DNA from: a virus
Length of the DNA stretch: 26,321 bases
Virus record (IMG/VR): IMGVR_UViG_3300021599_000313
Location: 1 to 26,321 of that record
Direction: 5' to 3' (one strand)
Each line of letters starts with the position of its first letter. The first letter of the stretch is position 1. The notes under the pieces are model-generated. The model made no database searches. It was given only the letters and a program-made list of their open reading frames with translations, and was not told the DNA's origin. Both the position numbers and the translations under genes were made by a program. Of the stretch, positions 3,116-9,701 are shown one piece after another.

Positions 3116-3516
3116 AACACATGATTGAAACATTGAGCGATACAATGTTGGAAGTTGGGGGCGGTAATTATTGCCCCCTTCAATTCCACATCGAGTTGAA
3201 AGAACTTGCCGATACCATCAAGAATTTCCAAGACCAAATCAAACCATTGGCATTGAACGAAGCATCCAAATGGAACGGGCAAGTGTATTGTGGTTATGAG
3301 ATAACACGAAAAGCGGGTGCGGGGCGTTATTCATACGACCACATCCCCCAGGTTGTGGAACTCAAAAACGCATTAAAGGAACGCGAGAAACTGCACCAAA
3401 TGGCCTACAAGAACATGAACAAAGGTTTGTTCCTAAACGAGCAAACGGGCGAGGTGTACGAACCCGCACAGTATGTTTCCAACGAAGATTCAATTTTAAT
3501 CAAAGCCGTAAAATGA
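3112..3516 (+). CDS. Hypothetical protein, 134 aa
   Basis: A soluble helical protein. It contains AGAGRYSYDHIP (around residues 68-80), a Lys/Glu-rich helix after that, and a LNEQTGEVYEPA segment near the C-terminus. I recall similar proteins near SSB and recombination genes in Bacteroidota phages but cannot name a domain. ATGA overlaps join it to both neighbours, so it is translated as part of this operon. Confidence 0.6.
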   Translation: MKHMIETLSDTMLEVGGGNYCPLQFHIELKELADTIKNFQDQIKPLALNEASKWNGQVYCGYEITRKAGAGRYSYDHIPQVVELKNALKEREKLHQMAYKNMNKGLFLNEQTGEVYEPAQYVSNEDSILIKAVK

Positions 3517-3701
3517 AAAACATCCTAATCGTATTTACTACAATCGTTCTGGGATTGGCTTATGGGTATTGCATTGTGCATTATCCAATCATGGCCCAAA
3601 TCATCGCGGGTGGAATGGGGTTAGGATTTTTATTCGTGGCGATGATAGCGTTGTACCAACTTAAAAAGGAAGGGGGCAATGACGCCCCCCAATCCAATTG
3701 A
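3513..3701 (+). CDS. Two-helix membrane protein, 62 aa
   Basis: Two hydrophobic segments (about residues 3-22 and 29-51) with a short loop, then a Lys/Glu/Gly-rich tail. The topology resembles small holins, but the gene lies in the early operon far from the endolysin, so an early membrane function is at least as likely. Last gene before the second promoter. Confidence 0.6.
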   Translation: MKNILIVFTTIVLGLAYGYCIVHYPIMAQIIAGGMGLGFLFVAMIALYQLKKEGGNDAPQSN

Positions 3702-3723
3702 TATGACAAATAACAAAAAGGAC

Positions 3724-3754
3724 TTTGCAAATATAGTTCATTTTTGTATATTCG
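3724..3754 (+). promoter_or_regulatory. Bacteroidota-type promoter for the replication genes
   Basis: TTTG at 3724-3727 and TATATTCG at 3747-3754 are 19 bases apart; the -7 box differs from TAnnTTTG at one position. The predicted start near 3760 gives a leader of roughly 95 bases before the ATG at 3856, in contrast to the near-leaderless starts of the other promoters here. Confidence 0.65.
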
Positions 3755-3771
3755 TGGTGTATTACAGTTAT

Positions 3772-3848
3772 GTCGCAGATAACTTTGAAAAATCTTTACA
3801 ACCCCATTCAGTTTTTGGCACTGCGACCGCCATCAATTGTTTGGGGTT
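3772..3848 (+). ncRNA. Candidate pseudoknotted 5' leader RNA before the replication gene
   Basis: Two perfect 7-bp helices interlock. GTCGCAG (3772-3778) pairs with CTGCGAC (3821-3827), and AACCCCA (3800-3806) pairs with TGGGGTT (3842-3848). The order 1-2-1'-2' is an H-type pseudoknot. The last strand ends seven bases before the ATG at 3856, where the ribosome binds, so folding could control translation of the initiator-like gene. An extra 4-bp hairpin (AGAT 3777-3780 with ATCT 3791-3794) would partly compete with helix 1. A 49-codon ORF (3703-3852) also spans this region but contains the promoter. I recognise no known riboswitch class. Confidence 0.5.
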
Positions 3849-3855
3849 TTAATTT

Positions 3856-4512
3856 ATGTCAAAAGATCCAGCATTTTTATTCTATTCAAGTGACTTCCTA
3901 ACTGGCACGATGTTCATGGACAATGAGCAAGTTGGCAAATTCATACGATTAATGTGCGCCCAACACCAAAAAGGTAGATTGAGCGAAAAAGATATGTTAA
4001 AGATATGTGGCACACATGATGCAGATATCTTTGAAAAGTTTGAACGCGATGAGGCGGGGAACTATTTTAATCCCAGGTTGGAACAAGAAGTTGATAAGCG
4101 TAAAGCGTATTCCGAATCAAGAAGGAATAATAGGAAAAAGAAAGAAGATATGTTAATCACATCAAAAACATATGTTCTACATATGGAAAATGAAAATGAA
4201 AATGAAATTGAAATTGTAAATGAGAAAGTAGATAATAACTTAATCAAAGAGCAATTTGAACAAGTTTGGATTGCATACACAAAGGTTGGCCCAAAGAAAG
4301 TTGCATACGAGCGATTTAAGCGATTAACTGAAACCAATCGGTTGCATATTATTAACCATGTACCAAATTACATACAAAGCCACCGCAAGGCCGAAAAAAT
4401 GGATTTTATCCCGCATTTCGCAACTTACATTTCACAAGAACGATGGAACGATGAACTACCTTATCAACAGAGTGTGGAAAATAAGGGAAGTTGGTTGGAT
4501 CAATTTAGATAA
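3856..4512 (+). CDS. Replication initiator/helicase-loader-like protein, 218 aa
   Basis: The N-terminal 85 residues (KDPAFLFYSSDFLTGTMFM, then QVGKFIRLMCAQHQKGRLSE) match the winged-helix domain common at the start of phage replication proteins (DUF1376/DnaD-like group). A low-complexity Lys/Asn/Glu linker (about 86-135) follows, then a helical C-terminal domain (135-218) as in initiators and helicase loaders. The linker is encoded by tandem GAAAAT-type hexamers that might be the origin. It is the first gene after its own promoter and structured leader. Likely binds the origin and brings in host helicase, as no phage helicase is visible. Confidence 0.7.
   Translation: MSKDPAFLFYSSDFLTGTMFMDNEQVGKFIRLMCAQHQKGRLSEKDMLKICGTHDADIFEKFERDEAGNYFNPRLEQEVDKRKAYSESRRNNRKKKEDMLITSKTYVLHMENENENEIEIVNEKVDNNLIKEQFEQVWIAYTKVGPKKVAYERFKRLTETNRLHIINHVPNYIQSHRKAEKMDFIPHFATYISQERWNDELPYQQSVENKGSWLDQFR
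4186..4221 (+). repeat. Six tandem AT-rich hexamers (GAAAAT type)
   Basis: Three exact GAAAAT units (4186-4203) are followed by two GAAATT units and one GTAAAT unit, in frame, encoding the Asn/Glu linker of the initiator-like protein. Origins inside the initiator gene are known from lambda O. The repeat could be such an origin, or simply a low-complexity linker. Confidence 0.6.
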
Positions 4513-6030: not shown

Positions 6031-6380
6031 AGCACCTGGAAAGCCGTTTACAAATTTCGTGTGTTAAGTGGTTTCGGTTGGCCCATCGCCAATATGCAAA
6101 CCATTTGATTCATGTTCCCAACGGAGGATCGAGAGATTTGCGAACGGCCCAAAGGTTAAAAGCCGAGGGAGTATTGCCAGGGGTGGCCGACCTTGTGTTA
6201 TTCATCCCCACACAAACACACCACGGGTTATTCATCGAACTCAAAGTCAAACCAAACAAACAATCAGTACATCAAAAAGAATGGGAAAAATTGGTTACCG
6301 CGATGAATTATCACTATGTGGTGGTATATTCGTTTGAGGATTTCAAATTACAAATCGAAGCATACATTGGTAACACTTGA
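6027..6380 (+). CDS. VRR-NUC nuclease, 117 aa
   Basis: A stand-alone VRR-NUC fold of the PD-(D/E)XK superfamily, cleaving branched DNA such as replication or recombination junctions. Seen in order: Glu5, HVPNGGSRD (29-37), GVLPGVADLVLF (48-59, with the catalytic Asp), GLFIELKVKP (67-76, the E-x-K), and Gln79 with Gln83. The length is typical of single-domain phage forms. It starts four bases inside the previous gene and may resolve replication intermediates before packaging. Confidence 0.88.
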   Translation: MKHLESRLQISCVKWFRLAHRQYANHLIHVPNGGSRDLRTAQRLKAEGVLPGVADLVLFIPTQTHHGLFIELKVKPNKQSVHQKEWEKLVTAMNYHYVVVYSFEDFKLQIEAYIGNT

Positions 6381-6975
6381 AGCCATAGCCAAACGCCACA
6401 TTGAATGGATCAAGATTGCCAAATACATTGGTGCATCAAACGATGAAGCGGATGACATGGTACAATCGATGTATTTGAAGTTGGCGGAAATCCAATTGGC
6501 GGAGGGAAATTTTGTAAGGTTGACCAATTACAACGGAACCATCAATACCATCTATTTATTCAAGATGTTACACAATGCGTTTATGGACATCAAACGGGCA
6601 TCAAACAAGACAATACCACACCAAGACCAATTTAACCCCGTAGAAAGCCCCGAAATGGCTGAAATGGCACATTTGGACTTGATGGGGGAAGTGAAAAAGG
6701 CAATTGATGAATTAAGGGATTACGACCAAATGTTATTGGAACTACATTTTGTGTACGGCCATAGCATGAGGGATATCGAAAAACGCACGGGGATACCAAC
6801 ACATTCGGTTTTTAACTCAATCAAAAACGCCAAACAACACATCAAACAACGAACACAAACCAAATACAAAATATATGCAGAAGAAAAGCGACACACGGAA
6901 ACAATTTACCGAATCACGACCATCCATCGGGTTGGGGGATACGATCCAGAAGGTAACGAAAGCCACGGGGATTGA
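6367..6975 (+). CDS. Sigma-70-like (ECF-type) regulator, 202 aa, TTG start
   Basis: The N-terminal half (IAKYIGASNDEADDMVQSMY, then NTIYLFKMLHNAFMDIKR) looks like sigma region 2, and LELHFVYGHSMRDIEKRTGI followed by a basic helix looks like the region 4 helix-turn-helix. I placed the start at the TTG at 6367, overlapping the nuclease end by 14 bases, because the ATG at 6316 gives an N-terminus encoded antiphase to conserved nuclease residues. It may direct RNA polymerase to phage middle or late promoters. The last third of the gene lies out of phase with the next CDS for 101 bases. Confidence 0.65.
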   Translation: MVTLEAIAKRHIEWIKIAKYIGASNDEADDMVQSMYLKLAEIQLAEGNFVRLTNYNGTINTIYLFKMLHNAFMDIKRASNKTIPHQDQFNPVESPEMAEMAHLDLMGEVKKAIDELRDYDQMLLELHFVYGHSMRDIEKRTGIPTHSVFNSIKNAKQHIKQRTQTKYKIYAEEKRHTETIYRITTIHRVGGYDPEGNESHGD

Positions 6976-7600: not shown

Positions 7601-7808
7601 CCAACATGACTGGATTCCATGTGAAGTGCCAAACTGCGGGAAACAATGTATTGATGTTCATCACCTTATCCCCAGGTCACGCGGGGGCAAAGACAATATC
7701 GAAAACCTTATGGGATTGTGTCGGGATTGCCACCACGAAGTTCACTTTGGAACAAAATTAAAAAACGAATATCTAATCACAGTACACCAAATAAAATTAA
7801 ACAAATGA
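7557..7808 (+). CDS. HNH nuclease, 83 aa
   Basis: A compact HNH endonuclease: IPCEVPNCGKQ (first Cys pair, residues 18-29), IDVHHLIPRSRGG (His pair), then NIENLMGLCRDCHHEVH (the conserved Asn, second Cys pair and final His). The four cysteines bind zinc and the beta-beta-alpha metal core cuts DNA. It overlaps the HTH gene by 44 bases and the ParB-like gene by four. Its position away from terminase makes it unlikely to be the packaging-associated HNH, so a free-standing nuclease acting on host or rival DNA is more likely. Confidence 0.85.
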   Translation: MQKHTKTYLNYFGYDQHDWIPCEVPNCGKQCIDVHHLIPRSRGGKDNIENLMGLCRDCHHEVHFGTKLKNEYLITVHQIKLNK

Positions 7809-8401
7809 ATATAGAATGGGTAAAAACAACGGACATTCATGCGAATGAAAACAATCCCAGAATTTTGAAAGATGACAAATTCAAGAAATTAGTACAATCA
7901 ATTAAGGATTTCCCCGAAATGTTGGAGATTCGCCCAATTGTTGTCAACAACGAAATGATGATATTGGGTGGCAACATGAGATTGAAAGCCATTCAAGAAA
8001 TCGGATTAAAAGAAATCCCCATCATCAAAGCGGAAAACCTAACCGAGGAACAAGAACGGGAATTTTTAATCAAAGACAATGTTGGATTTGGTGAATGGGA
8101 TTGGGATGCGTTGGCGAATGATTGGGATTACAAGGAGTTAAATGATTGGGCGTTGGATTTGCCAAAGATGTTAGATCCCGAACAATTTGGCGAAGATTTT
8201 AGTTTGGCCGATGGTGACAAAAGCCCGTTCCAACAAATGGCATTTACACTTGCAGATGAACAAGCGACACAAATTAAAAACGCGATTGCGGATATTAAGT
8301 TAACCGAAGAATACAAATACATGGAAGCGATGGGTAACGAAAATTCAAATGGGAATGCGTTGTATTTAATTATTATGCAATGGGCAGAGCAAAAGAAATA
8401 A
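7805..8401 (+). CDS. ParB-N-domain protein (ParB/Srx fold), 198 aa
   Basis: The first 95 residues match the ParB/sulfiredoxin N-terminal domain: IHANENNPR (11-19), then ILGGNMRLKA (53-62), the box that contacts nucleotide in ParB CTPases and ParB-like nucleases. The segment IKDNVGFGEWDW (89-100) often follows this domain in phage and mobile-element proteins. The C-terminal half is not recognised. The start is in an ATGA overlap with the HNH gene; the end overlaps the Mom-like gene by 22 bases, so the two are probably co-translated and may act together in DNA modification. Confidence 0.8.
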   Translation: MNIEWVKTTDIHANENNPRILKDDKFKKLVQSIKDFPEMLEIRPIVVNNEMMILGGNMRLKAIQEIGLKEIPIIKAENLTEEQEREFLIKDNVGFGEWDWDALANDWDYKELNDWALDLPKMLDPEQFGEDFSLADGDKSPFQQMAFTLADEQATQIKNAIADIKLTEEYKYMEAMGNENSNGNALYLIIMQWAEQKK

Positions 8402-9147
8402 TCGTCAAGGTGATACCATCAGCCATTGCAAATGCCTTTGTAAAAAAACATCATTATAGTGGCAAGGTTGTATCAAATAGCACATTGCATTTTGGATGTT
8501 TTTTGGATGGTAATTTACATGGTGTCATGAGTTACGGCAATCCATTAGACAAATCAAAAGTATTGCCAATGGTACAACCATGCAAATGGAATGAAATGTT
8601 GGAATTGAATCGAATGGCTTTTGATGAGTATTTGCCGAAGTATTCCGAATCTCGGTGCATCGCAATTAGTATTAAATTAATTAAGAAAAATGCTTCACAC
8701 ATTAAATGGATTTTATCATTTAGCGATGGCACACAATGTGGGGATGGTACAATATATCGGGCGACTGGATTTGTGTTGACAGCAATTAAAAAAAATCATA
8801 ATACTGTGCAATTGCCAAATGGCGAAGTAATACACAAAATGACCTTGGAAAGTAGCCCATTACAAAAACGACCCGAATTAAATGGTATGTCATATTACCA
8901 ATTGACTAATGGCAAATATAATTTTAATCAATATGTTGAACATGTTAATGGAAAAATTTTGGTTGGTTACCAATTGCGTTACATTTACCTAATTGACAAA
9001 ACTTGTCAAATCACAGTACCCGTTTTACCATTTAGCAAAATAGACGAAATGGGCGCGGGTATGTATAAGGGTGAAAAAATCACATTGAAAGAACGAACTT
9101 TGAGCAGGGTGGTCGAATCGAACGCCGATTTCAAACTGGATGCTTGA
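8380..9147 (+). CDS. mom: Mom-like DNA modification enzyme (GNAT-like), 255 aa
   Basis: Resembles the Mu Mom family, GNAT-related enzymes that convert adenine in phage DNA to a carbamoylmethyl form and so block host restriction. Seen are HHYSG (24-28), LHFGCFLDGNLHGVMSYG (36-53), ELNRMAFDEYLP (75-86), then LSFSDGTQCGDGTIYRATGF (112-131), the typical acyl-CoA region. The C-terminal 14 residues (242-255) are read from DNA complementary to a tRNA-Gly-like sequence on the other strand, so the natural C-terminus may once have been elsewhere. Overlaps the ParB-like gene by 22 bases. Confidence 0.8.
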   Translation: MGRAKEIIVKVIPSAIANAFVKKHHYSGKVVSNSTLHFGCFLDGNLHGVMSYGNPLDKSKVLPMVQPCKWNEMLELNRMAFDEYLPKYSESRCIAISIKLIKKNASHIKWILSFSDGTQCGDGTIYRATGFVLTAIKKNHNTVQLPNGEVIHKMTLESSPLQKRPELNGMSYYQLTNGKYNFNQYVEHVNGKILVGYQLRYIYLIDKTCQITVPVLPFSKIDEMGAGMYKGEKITLKERTLSRVVESNADFKLDA

Positions 9148-9172
9148 TGTGTTACCACTACACTAACCCCGC
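9103..9172 (-). tRNA. Degenerate tRNA-Gly(UCC)-like sequence on the minus strand
   Basis: Read on the minus strand, a cloverleaf is evident. The acceptor stem GCGGGGT/ACCCTGC is 7 of 7 (one G-T), the D stem GTGT/ACAC is perfect around AGTGGTA, the anticodon stem TCAAG/TTTGA is 5 of 5 (one G-T), and a TTCGATT T-loop is present. Faults are two mismatches in the T stem, a short variable loop, A instead of U at position 33, and no encoded CCA (the next bases are CAA). The apparent anticodon is UCC. It is the only minus-strand gene candidate and overlaps the last 45 bases of the Mom-like gene. A decayed tRNA or attachment remnant is likeliest. Confidence 0.5.
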
Positions 9173-9202: not shown

Positions 9203-9376
9203 ATGAAAGCATGGAGAGAAACCCGCGACACCATACCACATGACCAAGTGTGGGTATTAATCGACACCAAAGAGGTTGCCTACATTTTAGACGGGCAATG
9301 GTATTTGTCAACAGATGATTCACCAATAAATGCACCATATATGTGGCTGCCAATTCCAATTTTACCCCCCGAATAA
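9203..9376 (+). CDS. DUF551-like small protein, 57 aa
   Basis: The pattern WRETRDTIPHDQVWVLI, then GQWYL, and finally APYMWLPIPILPPE matches the layout of DUF551 (Trp near the start, a Pro, a Val-rich strand, and a closing Trp-x-Pro-x-Pro). DUF551 proteins are frequent in phage accessory regions and have no settled role. It sits alone between the Mom/tRNA region and terminase, with a TATATTTA element at 9174-9181 that could act as a weak promoter. Confidence 0.6.
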   Translation: MKAWRETRDTIPHDQVWVLIDTKEVAYILDGQWYLSTDDSPINAPYMWLPIPILPPE

Positions 9377-9389
9377 CAATGAAAAAACA

Positions 9390-9701
9390 ATGGCAAGGGA
9401 AGACAATTTGAAACCAATGCAACCTGGGGAAACCCGCAACCCCAATGGCAGACCAAAGGGAAGCAAAAACCGAAGCACCATCGCACGGAAATGGTTGGAG
9501 GTAATGCAAGAAAGCAAAAACCCCATCACGGGTGAATTGGAAAAACTATCCCAAGAAGATTTGATAACACTTGCAATGATACACAAGGCAAGGAAAGGGG
9601 ATGTGGGTGCATACAAACAATTGATGGATTCGGGTTTTGGTATGCCCACCCAACAAATTGAACAAACCATTATTGAACAACCTTTATTCCCTGATAAGTA
9701 G
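9390..9701 (+). CDS. terS: Small terminase subunit-like protein, 103 aa
   Basis: Starts MAREDNLKPM and contains RNPNGRPKGSKNRSTIARKW (residues 16-35), a basic stretch found at the start of Bacteroidota phage packaging proteins, followed by helices and the ending IIEQPLFPDK. It would recognise the packaging site and feed DNA to the large subunit encoded 496 bases downstream. The ATG at 9390 was chosen since the one at 9379 is out of frame. The stop is TAG, one of only two TAG stops in the window. A homing endonuclease gene separates it from terL. Confidence 0.7.
   Translation: MAREDNLKPMQPGETRNPNGRPKGSKNRSTIARKWLEVMQESKNPITGELEKLSQEDLITLAMIHKARKGDVGAYKQLMDSGFGMPTQQIEQTIIEQPLFPDK

Follow-up and report, generated by a model that had tools for sequence, protein, structure and literature searches.

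Kissing-hairpin leaders before replication genes of Bacteroidota phages, a candidate family of transcription attenuators

Judged by sequence comparison, the leader at 3766-3855 belongs to an RNA family of Bacteroidota phages that shows covariation and in which two hairpins with complementary loops precede a gene and the second hairpin is followed by a U-rich tract. The window, that is the whole stretch of DNA that was analysed, is a virus record of 26,321 bases, and its products include domains of phage terminase, amidase, ParB_N and sigma-70 region 4. It is proposed, with a little more than even confidence, that the leader acts as a promoter-proximal transcription attenuator of replication operons and that the kiss between the two loops tunes an intrinsic terminator; the mechanism is one that we infer. 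The parts of the leader and its surroundings are as follows.

3724-3754, plus strand: promoter of the Bacteroidota type, recognised by pattern (TTTG at 3724-3727, a 19-nt spacer, TATATTCG at 3747-3754)
3766-3784, plus strand: hairpin A, a 6-bp stem (AGTTAT 3766-3771 / ATAACT 3779-3784) with the 7-nt loop GTCGCAG (3772-3778)
3785-3799, plus strand: A/U-rich single-stranded linker of 15 nt
3800-3848, plus strand: hairpin B, terminator-like, outer helix AACCCCA 3800-3806 / TGGGGTT 3842-3848
3821-3827, plus strand: 7-mer CTGCGAC within the hairpin B apical loop, able to kiss the loop of hairpin A
3849-3855, plus strand: U-rich tract TTAATTT from hairpin B to the start codon (the preceding TT belongs to hairpin B)
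3856-4512, plus strand: gene of a replication initiation / primosomal-type protein of 218 aa (PHROG 270, E 2.3e-12, plus related families)

The leader measures about 90 nt. A sequence-only reading had placed a structured leader between a promoter at 3724-3754 and an initiator-like gene, and this outline held: the promoter fits by pattern, relatives carry a similar pattern upstream, and the gene falls in PHROG replication initiation / primosomal families (a Pfam search of the 3856-4512 protein gave zero matches). The two interlocked 7-bp helices it had described, GTCGCAG/CTGCGAC and AACCCCA/TGGGGTT, were both found on re-reading the sequence, and the final helix strand stops seven bases short of the ATG at 3856. 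The name given to the fold, an H-type pseudoknot, was right as to the interlocked helices, but these are better described as two kissing hairpins, the second of them terminator-like; since GTCGCAG is the whole loop of hairpin A and CTGCGAC lies in the apical loop of hairpin B, the interlocking is a loop-loop kiss. A plain H-type pseudoknot was rejected because its first helix strand forms the loop of hairpin A, which is conserved and covaries. The inner helices of hairpin B are CAGTT/AATTG and TGGC/GCCA, and in the window fold its apical loop has 9 nt, the 7-mer being flanked by A and C; among the relatives there are many whose 7-mer fills the whole apical loop. Neither loop 7-mer recurs on its own strand of the window, which leaves a partner in cis as the sole one available there. 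Beyond one match of the covariance model described below, no second copy of the leader RNA was found in the window, and the only leader 12-mers with a perfect complement elsewhere in it belong to the 3' arm of hairpin B, not to the loops; this complement, at 9614-9616, is taken as chance.

Several other features of the record deserve mention. A GC-rich hairpin without a T-tract lies at 3670-3690, immediately 5' of the promoter, and is perhaps the end of an upstream operon; such a pre-promoter hairpin, similar in position and different in sequence, is also found in L016, L018, L025 and L029. The product of 6316-6975 has a sigma-70 region 4 domain (PF08281) and is a possible phage transcription factor, that of 7718-8401 has a ParB N-terminal domain (PF02195) with packaging genes nearby, and ARAGORN placed a tRNA-Gly (TCC anticodon), which may be false, at 9102-9172 on the minus strand, opposite to the genes.

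The replication protein was searched against IMG/VR, without asking for the RNA; of the 308 related stretches obtained, the best 80 were used as relatives. A descriptor composed of a hairpin with a 7-nt loop, the exact complement of that loop inside a second hairpin and a T-tract after it matched 183 times in 3.19 Mb (both strands), compared with 2 matches in block-shuffled sequence, the shuffles being base shuffles within 60-nt blocks and not dinucleotide-preserving. Many of the 183 loci are the same contig fetched repeatedly, therefore distinct versions (cores) are quoted, and these number 42. Their lengths are tight, with hairpin B arms of 19-21 nt in all 42 and a linker of 12-17 nt, and the downstream start, of a replication gene, a small ORF or another phage gene, follows 6-20 nt past hairpin B. 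GT stands at the 5' side of the loop in 41 of the 42. A -33/-7 promoter pattern was found within 60 nt upstream in 32 of the 42 distinct relatives, the rate in random 60-nt windows being 1.1%, and a -7-type box 5' of the leader in 40 of them. Diverged leaders 5' of the gene have the loops GTACAAG/CTTGTAC (L022, L051), GTCAGAT/ATCTGAC (L020) and GTCGCAT/ATGCGAC (L038); in L016, L018 and others the leader is placed one small ORF further upstream. Very short frames, perhaps reflecting translational coupling, were noticed in L020, where ATG TAA lies directly 3' of the U-tract (approximately 3990-4003), and in L086, where ATG CAA AAA AAA TGA overlaps the rep start (approximately 1404-1430).

A wider scanner found matches in 53 of 80 replication loci, in 29 of 80 loci of a second replication family, in 12 of 80 helicase loci (2 expected) and, among GTDB loci, 4 matches in 64 against 1. 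Isolate or named records gave 12 matches in 10 records, compared with 0.5 per shuffled pass. Some of the isolate matches are probably chance; the wider-scanner matches judged in this way are L656 2649, L660 29223, L661 48920, L388 and L355. Distant blastn with 3700-4050 against phage records gave zero matches.

It had been suggested that covariation in homologous leaders should be checked, and compensatory changes were indeed found in hairpin A, in hairpin B and in the kiss. In an alignment of 39 versions (A2), 87.9% of cells pair and covariation scores 0.637, compared with 0.203 in shuffles, 0 of 500 of which reach the observed value, while deliberately slid pairings score 0.087-0.160. Every one of the six stem A pairs is changed on both sides, as are five of the seven in the kiss; all these figures count sequences and not events. 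The window leader combines the traits by which the family is defined: hairpin A, hairpin B with its U-tract, complementary loops and covariation.

The scan behind the 42 versions, and behind A2 with its 39, demanded the kiss; a covariance model of hairpins A and B with the kiss left out (R1) was built to remove this circularity and was searched against 90, 79 and 80 further loci. At E<=0.01 it gave 28 matches, 18 of them distinct, and a perfect 7-nt complement between the loop regions was present in 18 of 18, among which L376, a training sequence, and L156, L497, L498, L499 and L500, which closely resemble training sequences, add little for that reason. At E 0.01-1, where 11 matches (9 distinct) were taken, five of the nine had at least six complementary nucleotides; L059 and L520 fail the exact complement test, their TGCGGG/CCCGTA fitting if one G-U is allowed, and L410 and L568 fail the loop complementarity test. 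Of 21 long phage records, 14 gave strong matches to R1 (E<=1.5e-9), 3 weak ones only (0.08-0.33) and 4 none. R1 was also run on bacterial genomes, 395 at phylum level and 397 at family level, sets which overlap and in which the 11 best candidates per genome were scored; it found only the known Lutibacter-MAG contig and the locus L494. The latter, a chromosomal match (E 6.5e-4 in its genome), is a terminator whose loops are not complementary. It follows an ORF which we take to encode a glycogen-branching enzyme. One kissing leader was also seen in a bacterial genome, at position 3282 of a Flavobacterium caseinilyticum contig (L405), possibly in a prophage; its loop pair CATCCAC/GTGGATG is that of the F. 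columnare phage FCL-2.

Cultured phages carry the same element. Kissing leaders are found in lillamy9-1, hemulen6-1 and hattifnatt9-1 (core GTGAGAC/GTCTCAC), in mumin6-1, mymlan6-1, snusmum6-1 and snusmum9-1 (loops GTGGAACG/CGTTCCAC) and in morran9-1 (loops GTGAGAAG/CTTCTCAC), and the layout recurs in F. columnare phages FCOV-F2, FCOV-S2 and FCL-2, in Olleya phage Harreka_1 and in Cellulophaga phages phi19:3 and phi13:2. An alignment of seven isolate leaders, six of them distinct, has five of eight kissing pairs changed on both sides and 97.9% of kissing cells paired, stem A being nearly invariant; in FCOV-S2 the eighth kissing pair is mismatched. Single genomes can hold more than one leader: hattifnatt9-1 (L655) has three with different loops, at 9376, 13317 and 14355, preceding a helicase, an HNH-type endonuclease and the replication region, and the FCOV-F2 genome (L661) has a second kissing leader, GTAGTGC/GCACTAC, at 40344.

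The relation of the RNA to the gene behind it is loose. Four contig pairs with different loops (L016/L018, L100/L102, L063/L074, L025/L027) share 97-98% identity across 300 nt downstream and 92-96% upstream of the promoter, but only 58-68% in the RNA core, the exchange breaking close to the RNA 5' end and at the U-tract. Conversely, unrelated genes are preceded by RNAs at least 90% identical (for example L348, L026, L029), and in L348 the RNA is 95% identical yet the initiator that follows is from another family. Because the RNA is swapped between near-identical genomes and precedes unrelated genes, the leader behaves as a module independent of the following gene. The earlier suggestion that it senses the initiator itself is at odds with both kinds of case, that is with L348 and with different-loop RNAs before genes of 97-98% identity, and initiator-specific autoregulation was rejected on the grounds of these cassette swaps and RNA-gene mismatches.

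Other suggestions of the sequence-only reading fared no better. Ligand sensing is disfavoured by the scant conservation outside the pairing, and a metabolite riboswitch was rejected since no conserved unpaired pocket is seen in the 39 versions of A2 (2 invariant columns, 59% mean column identity). The 49-codon ORF at 3703-3852, which that reading had named as a rival constraint, is kept only in window-type sequences and was rejected. Even L014, with a replication protein of 94% identity, lacks it, and in only 15 of the 42 versions does a frame with an ATG start, of 22-90 codons, run through loop B. Taken together, a ligand, initiator or temperature sensor, the constraint of that ORF, or chance form the least credible account of the leader: the ORF does span the region in the window, but the compensatory changes in relatives count against this account, and the RNA does not follow the initiator family.

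The terminator character of hairpin B was approached without regard to T. In a T-blind scan of 4.05 Mb, 43 of 44 distinct elements have at least five T in the 8 nt past hairpin B, and the remaining one resembles the single shuffled match. Mean energies over the 42 versions are -21.7 kcal/mol for hairpin B, -4.2 for hairpin A and -8.8 for the 7-bp loop duplex. T stands at -3 in 80% of 54 leader genes, which had been chosen with a T filter, against 7% of 297 other starts, where A is usual (67%). Imperfect U-tracts, a point against the attenuator, occur in the window (TTTTAATTT), L166 and L168. The other observations support hairpin B with its U-tract as a predicted intrinsic terminator. They also bear on the idea that the kissing hairpins are a translational or mRNA-stability element, protecting the 5' end or setting ribosome access, with the U-tract as an unstructured landing site. 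The AUG 6-20 nt past hairpin B and the position of hairpin A at the extreme 5' end would agree with it, as would the leader pseudoknot which controls translation of plasmid repZ (PMC8383071). It is nevertheless considered quite improbable, because a GC-rich hairpin with a U-tract typifies intrinsic terminators and because the starts differ in context from those of the other genes at these loci.

In the attenuator that is preferred here, hairpin A, which the sequence places within a few nucleotides of the expected transcription start, would fold while RNA polymerase is still making hairpin B and would then pair its loop with that of B. Hairpin B and the U-tract would terminate transcription and release a short RNA of about 90 nt, the replication protein being made solely via read-through. 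The kiss may alter the speed or completeness of B closure, and in so doing would set the read-through fraction and with it the dose of replication protein. As to direction, we lean to a kiss that restrains B, in which case expression would be favoured; a folded hairpin B close to the AUG would also hinder translation. The attenuator is supported by the retention of the kiss in all 18 distinct R1 matches at E<=0.01 in spite of its absence from the model, and the constant lengths of arms and linker are as expected for pairing in cis. Against it, a purely cis device alone leaves the diversity of loop types and the swaps between near-identical genomes unexplained.

A role in trans explains loop diversity and swapping better than the attenuator does, and it is the main rival, but the cis partner tethered to the same RNA is an obstacle that it has to overcome. 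The RNA of about 90 nt released by termination would act as a self/non-self RNA on nascent leaders of the same loop type, in sister genomes or in a superinfecting phage, and lower replication gene expression; it would serve to sense copy number or to block superinfection, with the loop type defining a specificity group. In its favour are the cassettes exchanged with a new matched loop pair between flanks of 92-98% identity, the many loop types (15 in the 3.19-Mb descriptor scan alone), the compensated loop changes by which isolates of the same host differ, the three different leaders of hattifnatt9-1, and two precedents that work alike, namely pT181 and the P4 CI RNA. Both partners, however, lie on one molecule with a short linker between them, so that cis pairing should beat trans pairing, and the trans effect is a proposal from sequence; on balance the idea is held to be rather unlikely. 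No tyrosine integrase (PF00589) and no resolvase (PF00239) was found in 21 phage records, virus records that may be fragments, and with these absent from 21 of 21 classical lysogenic immunity is unlikely. An antisense partner on the opposite strand was rejected, since the antisense promoter pattern, judged by pattern only, lies downstream in 2 of 42 versions against a background of 4.2% per window. A broader formulation, in which self-matched kissing loops gate the terminator as an RNA recognition code and phages pass from one specificity group to another by swapping cassettes of about 90 nt, is regarded as speculative and doubtful. If true, it would mean sensing of own copy number and exclusion of like phages with neither integrase nor repressor, and some genomes would hold several mutually distinct recognition units.

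The N protein and the HK022 put RNA are precedents for phage antitermination, and the kissing complex could similarly be a recognition site for a phage-encoded antiterminator or another protein that reads it. An RNA near the promoter and ahead of a terminator, and the GT kept at the 5' side of the loop in 41 of 42 versions, would suit such a site, for which a candidate protein was sought among the neighbouring genes. The movement of the RNA among different downstream genes and the little conservation of sequence beyond the pairs make this very improbable.

The leader had been described earlier as belonging to no recognised class, and this agrees with Rfam 15, which gave no match in the window at the family gathering cut-off, H-type riboswitch families and the c4 antisense RNA included; there was no relevant match for 3640-3960 up to E 10, nor for the element in 12 relatives up to E 5. 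In the open-licence PMC literature, as far as its available text goes, no description of a kissing leader was found. As the searches found none, the RNA architecture is regarded as new, within a known kind, the attenuator leader of a replication gene.

In plasmid ColE1, RNA I and RNA II carry fully complementary seven-nucleotide loops whose sequence sets specificity, and these meet between two RNAs to control the replication primer. The seven-nucleotide loops are alike here, whereas a single RNA and a terminator, not a primer, are involved. The closest in logic, by analogy, are attenuators of the pT181 type and the P4 CI RNA. In rep attenuators of the pT181/pIP501 type an antisense RNA from the opposite strand kisses the leader and there is a separate anti-terminator arm (PMC4878617, PMC8383071). 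A leader before a replication initiator gene, an intrinsic terminator (seen here, by its sequence signature, between leader hairpin and rep start) and recognition by loop-loop kissing are shared; the present leader differs in having its partner hairpin in cis, no antisense promoter signal and a kiss on the terminator's own apical loop. The ColIb-P9-type repZ leader pseudoknot activates translation, and an antisense RNA blocks it (PMC8383071). Both leaders precede a replication gene and form a pseudoknot within one RNA, while here a terminator-like hairpin belongs to the pair and no antisense RNA signal is seen. The CI RNA of phage P4 is processed and pairs with separate sites, seqA and seqC, in the lysogen (PMC4825925); it is likewise a short untranslated phage RNA before replication genes, with premature termination and RNA-RNA complementarity. 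Unlike it, the present leader has a 7-nt loop pair within one RNA and no detected integrase, and an integrase or resolvase, the sign sought of the temperate or prophage setting of P4 CI and C4-type RNAs, was found in 0 of 21 records, which may be fragments. Membership in the pT181-type or P4 CI class is not claimed, as an antisense partner was not seen and trans action is only proposed.

The analysis points to an RNA architecture that recurs before replication genes in phages of Bacteroidota, among them cultured ones from Flavobacterium, Olleya and Cellulophaga. Such a leader could explain how the replication protein is metered in these phages, for which no repressor is known. The swaps seen in nature, and the cultured phages whose loop changes are compensated, allow the cis-attenuator and trans-specificity models to be set against each other, and the dozens of natural self-matched kissing pairs would be useful RNA parts.
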